Positions 37,115-47,323 are shown, numbered from the stretch's first letter. The stretch is DNA of 64,000 nucleotides from Pseudobdellovibrionaceae bacterium (GCA_019637955.1 JAHBUS010000002.1:434001-498000); one strand, 5' to 3'. Notes: generated by a model not told the origin, from the letters alone. Translations and numbers: made by a program.

Positions 37115-38302
37115 CTATTGCATTTTTTCGAGGGCCGAGGACCAGTTGGTTTCCTGGTCGAACTTGAGGCCGCGGTAGCGCTCTTGATATTGTGACCAAT
37201 CCCAGCTTGTCGTCGGAATCCAAACCGCCATGCCGTGCGAGTCTTTAAACGCGCTAGACACGCGGTTCACGATGACGACGTCGCTGAGGGCGGCTTGCAC
37301 GTTGGTGAGAGCCGATGCACTCAGCGCGAGAGCGGGCTGCGTTTGCAGGCGCCTCACAAAATCACCCACGTCTTTATAATCGCTGAAGGTGTAGTCTTGC
37401 GTGGCGGTGGCGATGGTTTTGGCTTGGGCCATGTCGGCCGCAGGGAGCGAGTTCAGTTCGCGGGCGAGATTGGCGAAGCTGCGATTAAAGGCGGGCATCT
37501 TCGTCAGATCCATCGCCGAGAGCGTGACCGCACGGGTGCCGTAAATGCCGCCCGAATAGGCCTTCAGATATTCATCCGCGAGATATTCCGACACTTGTGC
37601 GCCGTCGGAGGCCGGCGCGTTGGTCCACCGGCGCAAGAACGTGCTGTAGGGCCAGCCCTGTCCGGGTTCGACCTCCTCGGAGCCGACCATGTAGTGAACG
37701 GAGTCTTGGATTTCGGTGGCGACCTCGGCCATCGCCATTAAGCATGCGTCCGAGCCCATGATGTCGACCTTCTGACCGAGCCGAGTCGCGATCTCTTTAA
37801 ACGCGACGCCCATTTCTTCGGTGGTGATCTTGCTTCCGGTGTAGTCGTCCCAAGAGATGTCTTGAGTTTCAAGCGCCGAGCGCTTGCCATCGGTCGTGAG
37901 CACCCGGTGCCAGCCGCCACCATGGTTCCAGATCGCCACGAAGTAACGCTTCGCGGGGTAGTTGCGCGCGCCCCAATCCACGAAATCCACCAGGTTTTGC
38001 CATTGCCCCATGTCCACGCGCGGAAGTTCTTCGACCACGTCGTGGCTGCCTTTGTGAACCAAAATGCGGCGGGTGGTGGGATGCATTTTCGACGCCCATT
38101 GCACCACCACGTTCACGTCAGATGTCGACCCGATCTCCTGCATCTGCTCGACGTTCATTTCACCGTACCAATCCAGATTGTTGTGACCATTCAGGAAGAC
38201 CAGAAAGGTCCACTCTTTGAGTGGCTGCGACGCGCGCGCAGGTAGGGCCGAGCAGAAAAACGCAAAGCCAAGGATGACCAGCATCCGTGCGTGGTGGTTC
38301 AT
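37115..38302 (-). CDS. Secreted clostripain-like cysteine protease (C11)
   Basis: A 395-residue product with a signal peptide (to about SALPARA). The C11 catalytic dyad is visible: H127 in AIWNHGGGW and C187 in GSDACLMAM, each in its family context, plus the N-terminal FLNGHNNLD and SEEVEPGQGWPY segments. Clostripain-family enzymes usually cut after Arg or Lys. The ATG at 38302 has a strong AGGAGG upstream; the frame is open 35 codons earlier but without support. It is divergent from the patatin gene with a 200-base gap that holds the promoter listed at 38466. Confidence 0.9.
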   Translation of the reverse strand: MNHHARMLVILGFAFFCSALPARASQPLKEWTFLVFLNGHNNLDWYGEMNVEQMQEIGSTSDVNVVVQWASKMHPTTRRILVHKGSHDVVEELPRVDMGQWQNLVDFVDWGARNYPAKRYFVAIWNHGGGWHRVLTTDGKRSALETQDISWDDYTGSKITTEEMGVAFKEIATRLGQKVDIMGSDACLMAMAEVATEIQDSVHYMVGSEEVEPGQGWPYSTFLRRWTNAPASDGAQVSEYLADEYLKAYSGGIYGTRAVTLSAMDLTKMPAFNRSFANLARELNSLPAADMAQAKTIATATQDYTFSDYKDVGDFVRRLQTQPALALSASALTNVQAALSDVVIVNRVSSAFKDSHGMAVWIPTTSWDWSQYQERYRGLKFDQETNWSSALEKMQ

Positions 38303-38465
38303 TCTTCCTCCTGAAGAAATCGGTTCAATCCGGGTTTCTCTCAGGATAGACGCAGGACCCCGGGTGCGTTCAAAAGCCGCCACTGGTTCCAGCTTGAAAC
38401 TGGGCATGCGTCCTCGGCAAATTCTGCCGGTCTAGTCGGCATTTGCTTTGTGAAGGGAACTTGAA

Positions 38466-38494
38466 TTGTCATTCGCCACAGGTGTTCGTATTTT
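38466..38494 (+). promoter_or_regulatory. Candidate sigma70-type promoter for the patatin gene
   Basis: TTGTCA (38466-38471) and TATTTT (38489-38494) are 17 bases apart. A start of transcription about 7 bases on would fall at or just before the ATG at 38503, which has no ribosome-binding site, so a leaderless mRNA is possible. Confidence 0.4.
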
Positions 38495-38502
38495 GGTCAG
38501 CG

Positions 38503-39654
38503 ATGACTCCTGTTCCCCACGCCCGCAAACATGCCCTAGTCCTCACCGGTGGCGGTGCTCGTGCCGCTTATCAAGTCGGCGCGCTCAAAGCGATCGCCGA
38601 GCTGATGAAGTTCGATGGCTGTCCGTTTCAGATCATCTCCGGCTACTCGGCTGGGGCGATCAATGGCGTGTGGCTCGCGAGCCGGTGCGAAAGTTTTGCG
38701 GAGGCCACCCAAGGCATGTGGGATCAGTGGGCGAATCTCAAAACCGAAAAGATCTTTAAGACCGACGCGCCCAACTTTTTCATGATCGGCTTGCGCTGGC
38801 TCAAAGACCGATCCCTGGGCGGCGCCACGGGAGAAAAGCAAATCACCTACCTGCTCAATACCGAGCCGCTTCGCAAGTTCATCAATGAGCAGATCAATTT
38901 TAACAATATTAAGCGCCACATCGAGGCGGGGACCCTGCAAGGTCTTTCGGTCACGGCCGCTAATTACAACAGCGGTTATTCAACGACCTTCTTTTCAACG
39001 CCAGATGGAGTCCAAGAGTGGTCCAACTTCAACCGCGTGGGCGTGCGCACGGACATCACGGCCGAGCACGTGATGGCCTCGGCGGCCATCCCGATTTTTT
39101 TTCCGCCCGTGCAGTTGAATGGCGCCTTCTACGGCGACGGCATGGTGCGCCTCGGGTCTCCGTTGAGCTCGGCCATTCGAATGGGCGCCGATAAGATGTT
39201 GGTGATTGGCGTTCGCGGTGTCAGCGCGCACCCGGAGCTTCCGTCGCAGCAGCACTTCAAGACCGTTTCCATTAGCGAGATTGCCGGCACGATTCTCAAT
39301 GGATTGTTCTTAGACTCTTTGGAGTCCGATCTGCAGCGCATGGAACGGGTGAACCGGACGCTCTCGCTCATGACCGAGGACGAGCTGGGACGACAGAAAG
39401 ACCATCTGCGCGCCATCCCCGTTCTGAGTTTGAGGCCTTCGAAAGAGGTCAGCAACCTCTCGGCCTGCGAGAGTGAAAGCCTGCCTTCAACTTTGCGATT
39501 TCTTCTTCGCGGCATCGGAATGCGCGACGGGAAAGGCTCCGACCTTTTGAGTTACCTGTCCTTTGAGCCCGAATACATGCAGTCACTTCTTCGGCTCGGT
39601 TTTGAGGACACGATGGCGCGCGAACAAGAGATTCGTGATTTTTTCAAAGACTAA
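38503..39654 (+). CDS. Patatin-like phospholipase
   Basis: A 383-residue serine hydrolase of the patatin family. The oxyanion glycines GGGAR are at residues 16-20, the nucleophile is S49 in GYSAG, and the catalytic aspartate is D212 in YGDG. No signal peptide is seen, so it is cytoplasmic or exported by another route. It has a long C-terminal part after the catalytic domain. The open frame starts 20 codons earlier with TTG, but ATG 38503 fits the family start. A strong hairpin terminator begins inside its stop codon. Confidence 0.9.
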   Translation: MTPVPHARKHALVLTGGGARAAYQVGALKAIAELMKFDGCPFQIISGYSAGAINGVWLASRCESFAEATQGMWDQWANLKTEKIFKTDAPNFFMIGLRWLKDRSLGGATGEKQITYLLNTEPLRKFINEQINFNNIKRHIEAGTLQGLSVTAANYNSGYSTTFFSTPDGVQEWSNFNRVGVRTDITAEHVMASAAIPIFFPPVQLNGAFYGDGMVRLGSPLSSAIRMGADKMLVIGVRGVSAHPELPSQQHFKTVSISEIAGTILNGLFLDSLESDLQRMERVNRTLSLMTEDELGRQKDHLRAIPVLSLRPSKEVSNLSACESESLPSTLRFLLRGIGMRDGKGSDLLSYLSFEPEYMQSLLRLGFEDTMAREQEIRDFFKD

Positions 39655-39710: not shown

Positions 39711-40934
39711 TTATTTCAAGGCCCACTTCGAAAGGCTGAGTGTTTGATCTGGCACTGATGCGAACCGCTTGCGCGAGATTCCCAGCGATTCGATCAAAGT
39801 GGCCGCGACATTCTCGGGTCGAATGATGCGCGCGCCTTCACGCACGCGCGTGGGGAGGCCCGTTGCGGGGTCGATCGGCGAGGCGATGTGGTACGACGAG
39901 CCGGTTTTCGACTGGGCGTGGGTGACCAGGTTCGAGCCCCCGATCGTGGTGCCGCCCTTGATGCGCGGGCCGAGGAGCACGACGGAGTTGGTGAGCGGGT
40001 TGTGATCTTTGCCGTTCGAAGTGTTCAAGGCTGCCGTGCGCGAAAATTCTGACGTGATCATAAAGGTGGTGCGGTCGAGAAGACTTTGGCCGGAGCCGTT
40101 CACTTCGACTTTCGAGAAAAGATCGAAGACCTCCGCGACTTTTTCCCACGCCTTGGTCTGCTGTGCGAGGTGCGTGCCCGGGTGGGCGGCGTGCGTGTCG
40201 AGGTTCTCATTGAAGGAGAGAACACCGATTTGCGAGAGGCCCGCGCCGAAGAGGCCGGCCAAGTGATGTAGATCGCCCACGTTCGAACCTTGCTGCTTGA
40301 ACATCTCGACGATGTCTTTGAGCGTTTTGAGCTTTTGCGCCGAGCCCGCGAGTCCCGCTTCGATACGCGAGATCAGATTGCGGTCGTTCTGCGAGGATTG
40401 AAAAGGTGCACTTGAGCCATTCATGAATGAAGGCACGTTGCCGAGCTGCGTGACCAGTTGCCCGCGCACGCCCAAGTAAACGCTTGAATTGGTGGCCACG
40501 CCCATCAGTTCGGCGGGGCGTGTTTCCAAAACCTCGACGCCGAAATCGCCCCAGGATTGATTGGTCGAACCGCTCTGCATGTAGCGTTCGGCGGCACCGT
40601 GCCCGTTGTCCGAAGGACTTAAGAAAACGCCATTCACCACGCAAAGCCGTGAAGCATAATTCTTGATTGGCAGCATCGAAGGGCCAAAGGCGATATTGCC
40701 GATGCGGGCGATGTCGGAGGGGTTGTATTCGATGTACATGTCACGCTGATCGGGGAGCGCCGTGAGCCAGGGGTCCGCCCCGAGTGTGATGTCCCAACCG
40801 CCCGTGATCGCGATCTGCACGAAGAACCAAGGCGCCTCGCCTTGGGCACGTGCCGCGGGCAAAAAGGCAAGCTCCGCGAGGCTCGCGGCGAGAGCGAAAG
40901 ATCCGGATGTTTTTAGAAAATCACGTCGGTTCAT
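39711..40934 (-). CDS. Tat-exported DUF1501 family protein
   Basis: A 407-residue product with a twin-arginine signal (MNRRDFLKTSGSFALAASLAELAF, cut near ARA). The mature protein has the sulfatase/alkaline-phosphatase-like DUF1501 layout, with a GGWD motif and a late HNPLTNSVVLLGPRIKGG segment. The reaction catalysed is unknown. The ATG at 40934 has GAGG six bases upstream. It is the last gene of a coupled four-gene operon with a cytochrome-like protein; DUF1501 proteins are often found next to DUF1800 or DUF1549/1553 proteins in planctomycetes and myxobacteria. Confidence 0.85.
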   Translation of the reverse strand: MNRRDFLKTSGSFALAASLAELAFLPAARAQGEAPWFFVQIAITGGWDITLGADPWLTALPDQRDMYIEYNPSDIARIGNIAFGPSMLPIKNYASRLCVVNGVFLSPSDNGHGAAERYMQSGSTNQSWGDFGVEVLETRPAELMGVATNSSVYLGVRGQLVTQLGNVPSFMNGSSAPFQSSQNDRNLISRIEAGLAGSAQKLKTLKDIVEMFKQQGSNVGDLHHLAGLFGAGLSQIGVLSFNENLDTHAAHPGTHLAQQTKAWEKVAEVFDLFSKVEVNGSGQSLLDRTTFMITSEFSRTAALNTSNGKDHNPLTNSVVLLGPRIKGGTTIGGSNLVTHAQSKTGSSYHIASPIDPATGLPTRVREGARIIRPENVAATLIESLGISRKRFASVPDQTLSLSKWALK

Positions 40935-40942
40935 TCTCGTCC

Positions 40943-41578
40943 TCACTGGTACATCAAAAATTCGTCGCGTTTGAGCAAGATTAGGAGCGCTTGACGGGTG
41001 CCTTCCATCGCGTAGGCGCTAACTCCGGGAGGAAACACGTGGCGCATCAGGTCTTGGCGGTACTGCTTCGGGTCGGTCATGCGTCCGTAAGCTTGAATTT
41101 CTTCATCGGTTCCGAGCACCCAGCGCATCAGGTGCGCGATGTAGGCTTCGCGCTCGGCCTCGCTCGCGGGAACCATGACGGTCGTCATCGCCTTGAGCAC
41201 CTGCTCGTCGACAACTCCCGCAAGCAGAGGGGCCATGATCTCGCGCACGATTTGGGTTCGCTTCGCCAAGAGTTCGGGCGAGGTGTCCGTGCTGTAGAAA
41301 AGGTTGTAGGAGTAGTTGTTCAAACACGTCGACCACACCGTCACGAAGGCGGCGCCCGGCTCGTCGGCAAAAGGCTCGCCCGTTTGCATGTTCTGGTCGC
41401 CCATGGCGGCGCGGTCGTTGTCCGAGAGCGAATCGCAGCTCGAGCCCGAGATCCCGTTGAATTTTTCTTTGAGAGAAAGCAACAGGTCCTGCGGCGATTT
41501 GTAACCGCCGCGGAAGCTCGCCTGGCTATGGAGGCCGAGGGCCATCGTTAAAAGAAGAATCGAGATCGCGAGTTTCAC
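40943..41578 (-). CDS. Small secreted protein of the DUF1501 operon
   Basis: A 211-residue product with a signal peptide (MKLAISILLLTMALGLHSQA). The mature protein is helical and holds two cysteines (SSCDSL and STCLNN). The C-terminal third contains helices ending in LLILLKRDEFLMYQ. It resembles no domain I know, though the layout recalls DUF1592/DUF1587-style segments. It overlaps the upstream cytochrome gene by 4 bases and is followed by the DUF1501 gene after 8 bases. Confidence 0.65.
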   Translation of the reverse strand: MKLAISILLLTMALGLHSQASFRGGYKSPQDLLLSLKEKFNGISGSSCDSLSDNDRAAMGDQNMQTGEPFADEPGAAFVTVWSTCLNNYSYNLFYSTDTSPELLAKRTQIVREIMAPLLAGVVDEQVLKAMTTVMVPASEAEREAYIAHLMRWVLGTDEEIQAYGRMTDPKQYRQDLMRHVFPPGVSAYAMEGTRQALLILLKRDEFLMYQ

Positions 41579-43092
41579 GGAGCCACCGTTCTGCGCCCGG
41601 TTTCATCGGGGGCGCCATCCGCAATCCAAGATTTGAGCAAGTTCACTTCGCGCAAAGACGTCCGCCAGGGCGCCGTGCGGGGAGGCATAACGGGGCTTTC
41701 GCCGTCATGGGCGAGATCCATCGCGCGCGAGATCTTGCGCGTCCATCGGGCCATTTCATCGGCGCTACCGCCGATCGGCCATTTGGTGAAGTCAGGGAAG
41801 CTGCCATCGTCCGAGTTCGAATTGTACTGATCTTTGTGGCAGTCCTGGCATTTTTTGAGGAAGGTCTTGACGTGCTGTGCGCGAATCTCGGCCTCGCTCA
41901 TGAGTCGGCCCAATTCAAAAAACTCGGGCTGTTTCAAGAGAATTTTGATGAAGTCGTTGGTGCGGCGTCCGACGCGGTCGAACTCGGCGCTGAGCTGCGC
42001 GCGGCGGGCATCGCTCAACTTGTGGCGCGAACCCATGAACCAGGACCAAAAGTGATCGACCTGACACGAGACATATTCGGGCTGCTGCGTGATCGCGGCC
42101 CCGAGCTCGCCGATTCCCTTCACGGGCACTTTAACGATCTGCTGCCCGCGCTTAAAGCTGAGCGCGCCGGGAGAGGCTTGCGCCGAGAGCGCGAACGGCG
42201 ATGTCAAGAAGGTGCGGCCCATCGGATCGAGCTTGAAGTGGCAGGCATTGCAGTCGGGACGAGACCCGTGAAGCGAATCGCTCTGTTGAGCCATGGTGCG
42301 GATTTCGTTTTCGGTCATGCTCTGGTCGTGCGGGAGCATCAGATCAAAAATTTGATCGTCTTTGCCCTCGGTCGACGGGATCGCCGCTGACATCGAGTCG
42401 CACAAGAAAACGCGGAACACTTCGGCCGCGCGTTTGCGGTTCTTATTCAGGCCCGTGGTCACGAACCGGGTCATAAAGCGGCTGGTGGTGATCGCGCCCG
42501 CGACGCGAGGGTCGTTGCCGCTAAAGCGAACGTCGCGGTGAGTTTCATTGGAGAGTTCCGACGAGTAGGTCCCCGAAAGCGACTTGAGATCCGGGATCAG
42601 CGCGGCCATAAAGCCGTAGTCGTTGACGCCGATGCCTTGAATCACCGCGAAGCGCTCGCTCGGAAAGAGGCGGTAGTCTTTTGCTATCAAGAGGTCGTCC
42701 CAAGAGCGGTTTTGGCGCCCCATCTCGGTGAACAAATAGGTCAGCGCGTTCTTCTCATGATATTCGGATTCAAAAAGGCTGGGTGAGCCGCCCTCGCGTC
42801 CCAGCAAGCGGGCCGCGGTTTTCAGGCGAAAGAGCTCTTCAAGCCGCACGCGCATCTTGAACGCGTGTTGATCGCTGGCCAAATACTGGTCGGTCTTGGT
42901 TTCGAGAAAACGCGCACCGTTCCCAAGACGCAGGGCCGTCTCGAGTTCGGCCCGTTCGCCTTGGGTGGGCCCGTGTCCGCGAATCACCTGGCTGAGCCGG
43001 TTCAGTTTGGCGAAGTCGCCAATGGTTTCGGCCTTCGCCTGAAATATCAGGCCAAAGCTCAAGGCCCAGCCCACCATCAAGAGCGGTTTCAT
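41575..43092 (-). CDS. Secreted DUF1588/DUF1585-like protein with two haem c motifs
   Basis: A 505-residue exported protein (signal peptide to about residue 21). Two CXXCH sites are present: C281-x-x-C284-H285 in PDCNACHFKLDPMGRTF, the DUF1588 signature, and C415-x-x-C418-H419 in KKCQDCHKD. The segment QPEYVSCQVDHFWSWFMG matches DUF1585. These are domains of planctomycete and myxobacterial multi-domain cytochromes of unknown function. The ATG overlaps the upstream stop by 4 bases, and its stop overlaps the downstream start by 4 bases. Confidence 0.82.
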   Translation of the reverse strand: MKPLLMVGWALSFGLIFQAKAETIGDFAKLNRLSQVIRGHGPTQGERAELETALRLGNGARFLETKTDQYLASDQHAFKMRVRLEELFRLKTAARLLGREGGSPSLFESEYHEKNALTYLFTEMGRQNRSWDDLLIAKDYRLFPSERFAVIQGIGVNDYGFMAALIPDLKSLSGTYSSELSNETHRDVRFSGNDPRVAGAITTSRFMTRFVTTGLNKNRKRAAEVFRVFLCDSMSAAIPSTEGKDDQIFDLMLPHDQSMTENEIRTMAQQSDSLHGSRPDCNACHFKLDPMGRTFLTSPFALSAQASPGALSFKRGQQIVKVPVKGIGELGAAITQQPEYVSCQVDHFWSWFMGSRHKLSDARRAQLSAEFDRVGRRTNDFIKILLKQPEFFELGRLMSEAEIRAQHVKTFLKKCQDCHKDQYNSNSDDGSFPDFTKWPIGGSADEMARWTRKISRAMDLAHDGESPVMPPRTAPWRTSLREVNLLKSWIADGAPDETGRRTVAP

Positions 43093-44033
43093 TCAAAGGC
43101 TCCCGCGAATGTGGCCGATTCGGCGTTGGTGGCAATGCCTTTCATCGAAAATTCAATGCGCGTGAGAATGTCGATTGGAAAAGGGCCTTGCACCGGAGTG
43201 ACATTCTTAATCTCTTCGCGAAGCTCGTTGATGATCTGCGTGGTTTTTCCGAGGCTCATATTGAAAGTCGTCTGGCAGAGTTCGCCTTGTTTGTCGTGCG
43301 TGACCAGCGTCGCGGGACCTTGCGAGACCAAGGCGGGCGAACCCGCGAAGGCGGTGTAATAAGTGGCATTGTCGATCTGATACGTATTGCCATTCAGAAT
43401 CGAAAGCTGAACATCGAAGCCGCCATTGACTGCTTGGTTCTCGGCGACGTTGGTTTCGAGCGTGGATGTGTTGGTCTCTCCCGACCACGAAGCCACCGAC
43501 AACGCGGTGGGAAGCACGCGGCCCGGAACATTGGGCACATTGGTGAGCCATTCGAACTTATCGCAGCTCAGACGCCCCTTCAGACCCGCGAGCGTGCGCG
43601 AGCCTAGACGCTGCTGCTCTTCGATCGAAACAAAGTGAACGCCTTGCTGCTCGACCAGATGCTGTTTGGGTTGTCCGCCGCCGGGCAGATACATCACTTC
43701 TTGGCCGAGGCGGGACGCCTCGGGGTGTTTGGTCCAAATAAAAAGACCGTCGGCGACGACGAGGGGGAGCGTCAGTTCGCAGCGAGCGGCCGCCTGAGAA
43801 GATACGCAGAGAGTTTCGGTGAGATCCATTTGCATCGCGCTCCAACGCATTTGCGAGCGGCGCTGCAAGTACCGGGCTTCGCGCCCATCCTCGAAGCTCA
43901 TCACGATCACGGTGCCGGTGGGCTCGGCGCTTTTCAAAACTTTGAATCGTTGGTTGGTCTGCGCGCCCGCCATTGCGGCTTGGAGACAGCCGGAGATCAG
44001 AACTAAAATGGAGAGAGCTCGAAGTGGGTGCAT
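43089..44033 (-). CDS. Secreted protein heading the DUF1501 operon
   Basis: A 314-residue product with a signal peptide cut near AMAGA, possibly with a cysteine (SGC) that could be a lipobox. The rest is beta-rich, with several cysteines and no domain I recognise. It is the first gene of the operon whose members overlap by 4 bases, so it is probably made in step with the cytochrome-like protein. The upstream ribosome-binding site is weak. Confidence 0.65.
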   Translation of the reverse strand: MHPLRALSILVLISGCLQAAMAGAQTNQRFKVLKSAEPTGTVIVMSFEDGREARYLQRRSQMRWSAMQMDLTETLCVSSQAAARCELTLPLVVADGLFIWTKHPEASRLGQEVMYLPGGGQPKQHLVEQQGVHFVSIEEQQRLGSRTLAGLKGRLSCDKFEWLTNVPNVPGRVLPTALSVASWSGETNTSTLETNVAENQAVNGGFDVQLSILNGNTYQIDNATYYTAFAGSPALVSQGPATLVTHDKQGELCQTTFNMSLGKTTQIINELREEIKNVTPVQGPFPIDILTRIEFSMKGIATNAESATFAGAFE

Positions 44034-44142: not shown

Positions 44143-44742
44143 TTAGTTGGACGGCGCTTTAAACGTGACCGAGGCCGAACCGACGGGGCCGGTGAGGGTG
44201 ATCTTCTTTTCGTCTTTTTCGATCACGCTCATGGGAACATTGAAGGTCAATTTGTACGAGGTTTGCCAGCGCGTGTGGTGCGGGTAGAGCACGGTGATTT
44301 CGGCGAGCTGCGCCTTGATCCGCGCGGCCTTGCCTTCAAAGCGGCGGCCGCCGGCATCCAAAAAAATTTTCCAGCGAGTCGTGGGCTTGGCCAGATCGTC
44401 GTATTTTTTCTCGGGGATGAAGAAGCTCAAGTACACTTGCGACTCTTTTTGCAGGTTCGCTTCGGACGTCGCTTTCTCTTTTTCGTACTGCTCGGGGTTC
44501 CATTGATAGATGCGGGCATTCTGATCGGCCTGCGCGCGCACGACTTCGGCATTCAGCAAGGTCGCTTTGAAGTCCATGGTGTTCATGAAACCATCGTAAA
44601 CCTTGGCGCCTTCAGTATTGCGAGCAACGACACTTTCGTACTCGCCGACCGAGATCAGTTTGAGTTGAGGATTGTCCGGCAAAGTCGCGCAGCCGATCAG
44701 ACCAAACACCAAGAAAATCGCGGCAAATAAAATCTTCGACAT
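44143..44742 (-). CDS. Lipoprotein of unknown function
   Basis: A 199-residue product with lipobox LIGC (Cys 18). After a short linker it has a helical, charged part (residues 55-105) followed by beta strands (VYLSFFIPEKKYDDLAKPTTRWKIFLDAGG). I recognise no family. GGAGG lies 11 bases before the ATG. It is separated by 108 bases from the DUF1501 operon, so co-transcription is uncertain. Confidence 0.7.
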   Translation of the reverse strand: MSKILFAAIFLVFGLIGCATLPDNPQLKLISVGEYESVVARNTEGAKVYDGFMNTMDFKATLLNAEVVRAQADQNARIYQWNPEQYEKEKATSEANLQKESQVYLSFFIPEKKYDDLAKPTTRWKIFLDAGGRRFEGKAARIKAQLAEITVLYPHHTRWQTSYKLTFNVPMSVIEKDEKKITLTGPVGSASVTFKAPSN

Positions 44743-44828: not shown

Positions 44829-45719
44829 TCAAGGCAGTCTCTGTTGATAGCGCCGCTCGAGACGGTTGATCACGCCTTCGGTTTGCTCTGGAGGGACCGA
44901 AGGACGTTCGGATTCGCCCAGCACGTAAGTGAATCCCACCAAGTAAGTCACGTTACGGTCGGATTTATGCAGCGGGCTCTCGCGATTGCTTGAAGCGGTG
45001 TAGTCCGCAATGGCGGCACCGAGATAAAACGCCGCGCGTCCCGAGCGGAAACTTTGAAAGTACGCGAGCTCGCTGCCAAGAAGGCCCGCTTTCGCCTCAT
45101 AACTGGGGCGCGCGCTTGTGCTCTGCATGAGCGGCACCTCGAAATAGGTGCTCAAGAACTGCCGATCGCCGCCTTTGAGCGAGAGCGTGAGTTTGCCGTG
45201 CGCCTGCCCCGGAACGACAAACCTCCAGCCCGCGAAATCACGAATCCAACGGTACTCCAAGCGTCCGTCGAAAACGGCGCCGGCGGTTTTCGTGTTCACA
45301 AAATCGCTCGAGACCGCCTGAAAAACCGCGATCTTAAATTCCAAATCGTGAGTGAGTTTCACCACGAGCTGCGGCCCGAGCTGCGCCATCCAAGGCAGAT
45401 CTTCCATCCCGCGGCGGGCATCGTTGGTTCCGGAGTCAAGCGTCGGGTAGCCTCCGCCGGCGAGCTCAAAGGACCATCGATCCGATTTGAGCAGGTACGC
45501 GCGCGTGCCTTCGCGGTCATCGGCGCGCAGGATGCGGCCACGGTACTGAAAGGTTGGAAACGGCAAAAACAGATTCGAGAATTGATTCGAGGCGGGGTAG
45601 TGCTCGAAGTGCACGTAACCGAAACCCGCGCCGTACTCCCAGAGAGACGTCTCCTCGTCTTGGGGCCAAGCCGCGAGAGGCACGAGCAGCGTCAAAAGCC
45701 AGAGAAGCCCCGCGCGCAT
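44829..45719 (-). CDS. MipA/OmpV-like outer-membrane protein
   Basis: A 296-residue protein with a signal peptide (MRAGLLWLLTLLVPLAAWPQ). Its early strand GAGFGYVHFEHYPASNQ and the later FPTFQYRGRILRADD fit the MipA/OmpV family of barrels. The C-terminus has a short charged tail after the last strand (YLVGFTYVLGE). The ATG at 45719 lies 2 bases after the nadB stop (TGAGGATG), so it is coupled to nadB. MipA scaffolds murein enzymes in E. coli, but many relatives have no known role. Confidence 0.78.
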   Translation of the reverse strand: MRAGLLWLLTLLVPLAAWPQDEETSLWEYGAGFGYVHFEHYPASNQFSNLFLPFPTFQYRGRILRADDREGTRAYLLKSDRWSFELAGGGYPTLDSGTNDARRGMEDLPWMAQLGPQLVVKLTHDLEFKIAVFQAVSSDFVNTKTAGAVFDGRLEYRWIRDFAGWRFVVPGQAHGKLTLSLKGGDRQFLSTYFEVPLMQSTSARPSYEAKAGLLGSELAYFQSFRSGRAAFYLGAAIADYTASSNRESPLHKSDRNVTYLVGFTYVLGESERPSVPPEQTEGVINRLERRYQQRLP

Positions 45720-45721
45720 CC

Positions 45722-47323
45722 TCAGCTTCCGCGCACGAGGATCGTGTCTTTTCCCGGCGCTTCGATTTCGGCCCAAGGATAATCCAGGTTGTAATGAATC
45801 CCGCGCGATTCTTTGCGCTTGAGCGCGCACTCGACCGAGAGATCGGCCACGATCGCGATGTTGCGCAGTTCAAGAATGTCGCTATTGAGGCGGAAGATGG
45901 AGTAGTACTCCTTCACCTCGCTCAAAATGTTTTTCAGCCGGTGAGACGCGCGCTCCAGGCGTTTGTCCGAGCGCACGATGCCCACGTAGTTCCACATCAG
46001 ACGGCGGATTTCGTCCCACATGTGATGGATCACGACCATCTCGTCGGCGTCCGAATGCGACGGGTGGTGCCACTCGGGGGGATCGGTTTCCGGGAGTTTG
46101 ATCGCGGGGCCGAGCGCGCGCAATTTTTCCGAGCACTCGTGCGCCATCGCCAAGCACTCGAGCAGAGAGTTCGAGGCCAGGCGGTTGGCGCCGTGCAGGC
46201 CCGTACAGGCCGTCTCGCCGAGCGCCCAAAGGCCCGGCAGATCGGTTTGTCCCGAGACATCGGTGAGCACGCCGCCGCAGAGGTAGTGCGCCGCGGGCAC
46301 GACGGGAATCGGCTCGCTCGACATGTCGATGCCGTACTCGAGGCATTTTTTAAAGATCACGGGGAAACGCCTCTGCAAATAATCCCGGCTGTGTGAACGC
46401 ATGTCGAGATACACGCACGCATCGCCCGACGTTTTCATCTCGGCATCGATCGAGCGCGCGACGATGTCACGCGGGGCGAGCGAACCCATCGCGTGGTACT
46501 TTTTCATGAACGCTTCGCCCTTTGAATTAACCAGCTCGCCGCCTTCGCCGCGCAAAGCCTCGCTGATCAAGAAGTTGCGCGAGTCGCGGTGGTAAAGACA
46601 CGTCGGGTGGAACTGCATGAATTCCAAATTGGCGATGCGCGCGCCCGCCCGGTGAGCCATCGCGATGCCGTCACCGGTCGCCCCGCTCCAGTTGGTGGTG
46701 TAGAGATACACCTTGCCCGCACCGCCGGTTGAGAGAATCACCGACTTCGCCAAGAAGGCTTTCACGTCGCCGGTGGTTTTTTCGAGAACGTACGCGCCCA
46801 CGCACGCCGTGGGCTCGACCGATAAGGGGTCGATCTGCTTATTCACGATGAGGTCGATCGCGAAGTGCTCTTCCAGAATTTCGATGTTGGGATGGCTCAA
46901 GCATTGCTGCAAAAGCGCGCGGTGAATTTCGGAGCCCGTGTGATCCTCGAAATGCAGAATCCGGCGCTCCGAGTGGCCGCCTTCGCGGGTGAGATCGATT
47001 GAGGCGTCGTCTTTGAGGTCAAAATGCACGCCCCAGTTCAGAAGATCTTGAATTCTTTCGGGAGCTTGCTCAACGATGTTTCGAACCGAGTCGAGACGGC
47101 AGAGCCCGGCCCCAGCACGCAATGTGTCACGAACGTGTGCCTCGAACGTATCTCCCGGCGCCATCACGGCCGCGATGCCGCCTTGAGCCCACGCGGTGTT
47201 CGCGGAGGGCGCTTTTTCCTTGGTGATGAGCGTGACACGCGCCGTGGACGCGGCTTTCAGGGCGAAAGCGAGCCCCGCAAGGCCGGATCCAATCACCAAA
47301 AAGTCGGTTCGCTGTGTCTTCAT
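45722..47323 (-). CDS. nadB: L-aspartate oxidase
   Basis: NadB oxidises L-aspartate to iminoaspartate in de novo NAD synthesis, with FAD as cofactor. The FAD motif GSGLAG is at residues 12-17 of the 533-residue protein. The active-site region SANTAWAQGGIAAV, the histidine-rich HRDSRNFLISEALRGEGG segment and GETACTGLHGANRLASNSL are family features. The ATG at 47323 was preferred to the open frame 12 codons upstream. nadA and nadC are not in the window. Confidence 0.96.
   Translation of the reverse strand: MKTQRTDFLVIGSGLAGLAFALKAASTARVTLITKEKAPSANTAWAQGGIAAVMAPGDTFEAHVRDTLRAGAGLCRLDSVRNIVEQAPERIQDLLNWGVHFDLKDDASIDLTREGGHSERRILHFEDHTGSEIHRALLQQCLSHPNIEILEEHFAIDLIVNKQIDPLSVEPTACVGAYVLEKTTGDVKAFLAKSVILSTGGAGKVYLYTTNWSGATGDGIAMAHRAGARIANLEFMQFHPTCLYHRDSRNFLISEALRGEGGELVNSKGEAFMKKYHAMGSLAPRDIVARSIDAEMKTSGDACVYLDMRSHSRDYLQRRFPVIFKKCLEYGIDMSSEPIPVVPAAHYLCGGVLTDVSGQTDLPGLWALGETACTGLHGANRLASNSLLECLAMAHECSEKLRALGPAIKLPETDPPEWHHPSHSDADEMVVIHHMWDEIRRLMWNYVGIVRSDKRLERASHRLKNILSEVKEYYSIFRLNSDILELRNIAIVADLSVECALKRKESRGIHYNLDYPWAEIEAPGKDTILVRGS

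Follow-up and report, generated by a model that had tools for sequence, protein, structure and literature searches.

We examined a 64,000-nt stretch of DNA from a Pseudobdellovibrionaceae bacterium (the window; host genome of 3.77 Mb in 14 contigs) and found that four genes on its minus strand, named A-B-C-D in order of transcription and spanning 39711-44033 as open reading frames (ORFs) of the window, form a genuine, conserved cassette for which we found no earlier description as a unit. It is a compact version of the cytochrome/DUF1501 pairs of planctomycete type, to which no function has been assigned. We see about an even chance that its products make up one periplasmic redox enzyme complex, in which protein D, exported by twin-arginine translocation (Tat), would be catalytic, protein B would serve as a dihaem carrier, and C and A would have structural or accessory roles. 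All four reading frames are intact, and the cassette comprises the following features.

43089..44033, minus strand: gene A, 314 amino acids (aa), signal peptide, beta-rich orphan family; an ORF whose homologues head the cassette.
41575..43092, minus strand: gene B, 505 aa, predicted exported dihaem protein with an apparently DUF1549-like N-terminus, DUF1588, a DUF1585-like stretch and a C-terminal cytochrome c domain.
42238..42252, minus strand: first haem motif of B, CNACH, aa 281-285, within DUF1588; invariant in 18/18.
41836..41850, minus strand: second haem motif of B, CQDCH, aa 415-419, in the cytochrome c domain; invariant in 18/18.
41680..41688, minus strand: M469-P-P of B, probable distal haem ligand; M469 and P470 invariant and P471 nearly so among 18 members.
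40943..41578, minus strand: gene C, 211 aa, an orphan-family protein with a signal peptide; nine relatives carry it as the C-terminal part of a B-C fusion.
39711..40934 (ATG) or 39711..40946 (GTG), minus strand: gene D, predicted Tat-exported DUF1501 protein of 407 aa (ATG) or 411 aa (GTG).
40911..40928, minus strand: twin-arginine motif of D, RRDFLK; RR invariant in two D alignments, PF10518 at 21.7 bits.
39903..40088, minus strand: conserved DUF1501 core of D (S-E-F-x-R...G-K-D-H-N), PF07394 match at aa 287-348; R303, G312, H315 and N316 invariant.

The original prediction had placed four linked genes at these coordinates and tied them together by successive 4-base overlaps and an 8-base gap. 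This layout was borne out: A/B and B/C each overlap by 4 bases, and the outer ends coincide with those of the conserved unit. An 8-base gap between the C stop and the ATG at 40934 is the better reading of the C-D junction, because this ATG is preceded by a ribosome-binding-site-like GAGGACGAGA (AGGA-type), and because D starts at the equivalent M-x-RR position in most relatives, with C-D gaps of 1-19 bases. Export of all four products, also claimed from the start, holds as a prediction, with signal peptides on A and C, an exported B, and a Tat motif on D. A scan for promoters and terminators gave signals near chance level, and a search for RNA elements found none.

The distribution of B was determined with an alignment-based profile search of 141 genomes of the order and 369 genomes of the phylum; a contig scan with a single-protein query had retrieved nothing, whereas the alignment query did retrieve relatives. 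Full or partial copies of B were found in ~25 of the 141 genomes of the order (E below 1e-15) and in 33 of the 369 genomes of the phylum (E <= 1e-20). The contiguous arrangement A-B-C-D is present in 22 genomes from six families, with C separate in 20 and fused to B in two, and spacing among relatives is mostly -4 for A/B and B/C and 1 to 19 for C/D. One further locus is split across two contigs, and others are without A or are ended by a contig edge; a single genome (L128 and L057) has the order B-C-D-A, with A behind D and not ahead of B. Within the order, gene A turned up in 20 genomes; B is present too in 19 of them, and the remaining case is a weak match. The largest of the sampled genera also carries the cassette (genomes G043, G051 and G053). 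Compared with the proteins of the window, B copies show 22-50% identity, whereas values for A and C mostly fall within 15-36%. Flanking genes mostly differ between genera, with few exceptions linking three or four loci; because neighbors are mostly not shared in this way, the conserved block starts and stops with the operon. Chance is excluded as an explanation, since the entire arrangement is kept in distant genomes.

Pairwise distances between homologues are strongly correlated for B-D (r = 0.92; 30 loci), B-C (0.81), and A-B (0.81), values taken without species-tree control and to which common descent contributes. The B and D trees hold an identical group with 100/100 support (L097 + L102 + L099/L100) that mixes three GTDB families, and family f4 requires at least four changes in each tree. 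Because of this shared family-mixing clade and the f4 changes, the cassette seems to have been inherited and horizontally transferred as one piece. Essentially no plasmid carriage of the cassette was found, and none of the four proteins matched PADLOC anti-phage defence models.

Protein B had been described as a DUF1588 (PF07627) protein with two CXXCH motifs, and both parts of this description were upheld. The window protein alone scores 25.6 bits, just below the cut-off of 27, yet all 18 members of the B family match DUF1588 (best E 1.1e-10). Both CxxCH motifs, M469, P470, C231 and C343 are invariant in the 18-member alignment, and every complete B copy in cassette loci retains two CxxCH. 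Two parts of B had been overlooked. Its N-terminus appears DUF1549-like (PSCyt2), with matches in 12/18 family members (best 1.1e-7) and none for window B at E 1; its C-terminus carries a cytochrome c domain (PF13442) found in 18/18 family members and weakly in window B. This domain combines CxxCH 415-419 with the conserved distal M469-PP, as in class I cytochromes c, by analogy with which M469 is the probable distal haem ligand. Between DUF1588 and this domain lies a stretch that appears DUF1585-like by a transitive comparison via longer relatives. No relative of B was found among solved structures.

The original prediction of D as a Tat-exported DUF1501 protein also held. DUF1501 (PF07394) matches window D at 53 bits against a cut-off of 27, as well as 23/23 family members, and the Tat-type N-terminus (PF10518) scores 21.7 bits against a cut-off of 22.7. 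An AlphaFold2 (AF2) model of D (predicted local distance difference test, pLDDT, 81.7; predicted template modelling score, pTM, 0.82) retrieved choline sulfatases, nucleotide pyrophosphatases (NPP), YejM, and phosphoglycerate mutase (iPGM) in Foldseek (E 1e-5 to 1e-3; probability ~1), and the fold is thus predicted to be that of the sulfatase/alkaline phosphatase superfamily. Residues invariant in a set including alphaproteobacterial relatives are R7, R8, D52, H116, D250, H252, R303, H315, N316, N320, and others. By the order of strands, D52 would lie after strand 1, where it could act as the superfamily's first metal ligand, and H116 opens the helix after the second strand, where the nucleophile would be expected. 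D250/H252 and D314-H315 may correspond to the later metal ligands, although D314 is not invariant. The [CS]xPxR nucleophile motif is absent from D, and PF00884 (Sulfatase) did not match it.

The two smaller proteins, A and C, each lack a convincing relative in Pfam, NCBIfam, or the PDB. They had been called unique, which did not stand: homologues of C were found across the whole cassette family and A in ~20 Bdellovibrionales genomes. Nine relatives (L018, L019, L021, L060/L131, L090, L101, L103, L104, L105) have B and C in one chain, with C at the C-terminal end, which makes C, judging from sequence, likely to be a direct partner of B. The AF2 model of A is beta-rich (pLDDT 65.5), and this low-confidence model had no structural match in the PDB.

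In the complex we propose, D would fold and acquire its metal or metals in the cytoplasm before Tat export, and would provide the catalytic subunit, built on a fold like that of alkaline phosphatase. B, a Sec-exported two-haem protein, would accept electrons from the active site of D, or donate electrons to it, by way of its DUF1588 haem; the class I cytochrome c domain at its C-terminus would hand them on to the pool of cytochrome c in the periplasm. C would be a structural partner holding to B, and A may be a beta-rich accessory or substrate/envelope-binding subunit. In favor of it are the conserved linkage of the four genes, the B-C fusions, the near confinement of A to genomes with B, the distance correlations and shared clade, the haem motifs of B, the DUF1501 match, invariant residues and predicted fold of D, and a divergent operon of similar content in the same genome. 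The host also encodes TatC and a protein for cytochrome c assembly (PF01578). We infer complex formation, the binding of haem and metal, the direction of electron flow, and the roles of A and C. A bolder proposal, which we hold tentatively and with more doubt than confidence, is that the cassette represents a hitherto unrecognized type of redox enzyme in the periplasm, with an alkaline-phosphatase-fold Tat metalloprotein, carrying H116 at the nucleophile position, wired to a dihaem cytochrome. If true, a fold known for ester hydrolysis would serve oxidation, and the cassette would be a compact, horizontally transferred form of such an enzyme.

Several points weigh against a single redox complex built on this fold. 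Gene A is missing beside B-C in four relatives whose contigs would reveal it, and is therefore not strictly required; conserved operons can also encode parts that work in sequence and not as one complex. The contribution of common descent to the distance correlations counts on the same side, and CxxCH does not by itself prove haem. For D, template modelling (TM) scores against solved structures are mostly 0.3-0.4, and a profile-profile alignment with the relatives' PF00884 proteins, a weak test in which just one had CxPSR, gave no match; because TM is ~0.4 and a link to the sulfatase profile is lacking, the active-site residues were mapped by topology alone. The complex as a whole is a proposal made from sequence and predicted structure.

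The main rival to a redox complex is a hydrolytic system, in which D would be a phosphatase, sulfatase, or transferase that depends on metal and has esters of the envelope or of polymers as its substrates, with B a regulatory or separately acting cytochrome that happens to be co-expressed. The predicted sulfatase/alkaline phosphatase fold of D and its conserved Asp and His residues, typical of metal sites, speak for such a system, as do PSCyt genes that lie near sulfatase genes in Verrucomicrobia, some with carbohydrate-binding modules (PMC5615132). We nevertheless consider it unlikely: by topology, the nucleophile position is occupied by the invariant H116, the usual motif is missing, and a purely hydrolytic system needs none of the CxxCH motifs that all complete cassette copies of B have kept in duplicate. 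We prefer a redox role on these two grounds: D is encoded beside a protein with invariant putative haem sites, and it lacks the nucleophile of a hydrolase. Between the two options named in the original prediction, oxidative or hydrolytic, the invariant dihaem partner favors the first.

Less likely again is an envelope assembly module, whose proteins would help to make or alter a polymer at the cell surface, much like the DUF1501/DUF1800 pairs that accompany chitin synthase islands. Such pairs are co-transferred with chitin synthase genes (PMC5122149), and a MipA-family protein is encoded upstream of the cassette, in the same direction, in the window. Neither a synthase nor any other neighbor recurs widely around the cassette, however, and the window cassette contains no DUF1800 domain. 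Periplasmic dihaem proteins include peroxidases, and B might instead detoxify an oxidant in a peroxidase-like manner, with D as its partner, as part of a stress or peroxide defence. Control by a stress-induced ECF (extracytoplasmic function) sigma factor has been proposed for the PSD1/PSC2 gene RB10051 (PMC2754498), in line with such a role, but neither window B nor the 18 family members matched dihaem cytochrome c peroxidase families, and B matched no solved structure; we regard this explanation as quite improbable. Decay from an ordinary DUF1501 pair, raised by the original prediction as an outcome that would undo it, is scarcely credible: B is shorter than its relatives beyond the cassette family, which measure 600-700 aa, yet none of the four frames is broken, and key residues do not vary even between copies from many genomes that have diverged strongly. 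We rejected it as contradicted by this conservation.

Surveying genes encoding DUF1501 beside DUF1588, as the original prediction had suggested, revealed a real recurring combination, with related trios in Oligoflexales, Silvanigrellales, and Alphaproteobacteria. The idea of a minimal, undescribed periplasmic system stood in part: the cassette is distinct and self-contained, with A and C as orphan families, but its combination is less alien than supposed, both because related trios exist and because B is DUF1549-like in 12/18 family members, DUF1549/1553 proteins having already been named as usual partners of DUF1501. Three-gene relatives (L069-L084; Oligoflexales, Silvanigrellales, Rhodomicrobium, and Hyphomicrobiaceae) share with the cassette the order B''-small protein-D'', two CxxCH in B'', and DUF1501 in D''. 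They differ in having a B'' of 600-700 aa, no gene A, and a middle protein that is not detectably homologous to C (hhalign probability 3.8; hidden Markov model searches negative in both directions), so that C and this protein can be treated only as positional analogues. The middle proteins (~200 aa) form an orphan family marked by a C-terminus resembling LMNPYFLL.

A divergent operon in the same genome as the cassette (L020, 5839-12608; ~91.8-98.6 kb of contig C1) likewise combines a DUF1588/1585-like protein with one haem site, a DUF1501-like Tat protein, and a cytochrome c. Here the cytochrome c is on a separate lipoprotein gene, other small lipoproteins are present, and the D-like protein is 578 aa and below the DUF1501 cut-off; the arrangement resembles a B whose haem-bearing portions have been divided between two genes. 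No homology was detected between C and the 236 aa lipoprotein of a divergent operon. Several lipoproteins of the L020 operon share an FQNC(S/A) lipobox, one of them with two CxxCH, and similar sets occur in L023, L024, and L025. A DUF1588-type haem protein and a DUF1501-type Tat protein thus recur in several architectures, of which the cassette is a compact form.

Planctomycete-type PSCyt2 (DUF1549)/PSD1 (DUF1553) systems with a DUF1501 neighbor also place an exported haem protein beside DUF1501, with a DUF1549-like region as a probable further resemblance. By comparison, the cassette is without DUF1553, which was not among the families matched by window B or its family, and has DUF1588, a C-terminal cytochrome c domain, and the extra conserved genes A and C. 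The PSCyt3 (DUF1588) group consists of DUF1587/1595/1592/1588/1585 proteins with DUF1552 neighbors. It resembles the cassette in its DUF1588 with CxxCH and DUF1585-like stretch; in contrast, the 18 B family members gave no match to DUF1587 or DUF1595 and a single, chance-level match to DUF1592, and the partner of B is a DUF1501 instead of a DUF1552 protein. DUF1501-DUF1800 pairs, like the cassette, join a Tat-exported DUF1501 protein to an operon partner of unknown function (PMC5122149), but in the cassette a haem protein takes the place of the DUF1800 protein; DUF1800 was not matched in window A, B, or C, and in one of the 18 B family members only at chance level.

No description of the four-gene cassette was found in literature naming DUF1501 or DUF1588. 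Planctomycetes and Verrucomicrobia are rich in proteins with DUF1549, DUF1553, DUF1588, and DUF1501, to which no role has been assigned; for the PSCyt genes, a part in carbohydrate metabolism is suspected (PMC5615132). Rhodopirellula has 41 copies each of DUF1549 and DUF1553, and a PSD1/PSC2 gene has been read as redox-related (PMC2754498). DUF1501 clusters in bacteria of the Planctomycetes-Verrucomicrobia-Chlamydiae (PVC) group are the topic of work cited in PMC4452313. The cassette offers a small version of this domain group, with four genes in single copy within 4.3 kb, natural B-C fusions, and closed Bdellovibrionales genomes. Because it is small and single-copy, the subunit composition and function of the group become testable by deletion and co-purification, which 40-copy genomes prevent.

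Upstream of the cassette, the minus strand encodes a 199 aa putative lipoprotein without known family (44143-44742) and the MipA-family outer membrane protein (44829-45740), neither of which lies beside the cassette elsewhere. Next to the cassette on its other side, the region 37115-39654 encodes a clostripain-family peptidase on the minus strand and a patatin-like phospholipase on the plus strand, convergent with D.

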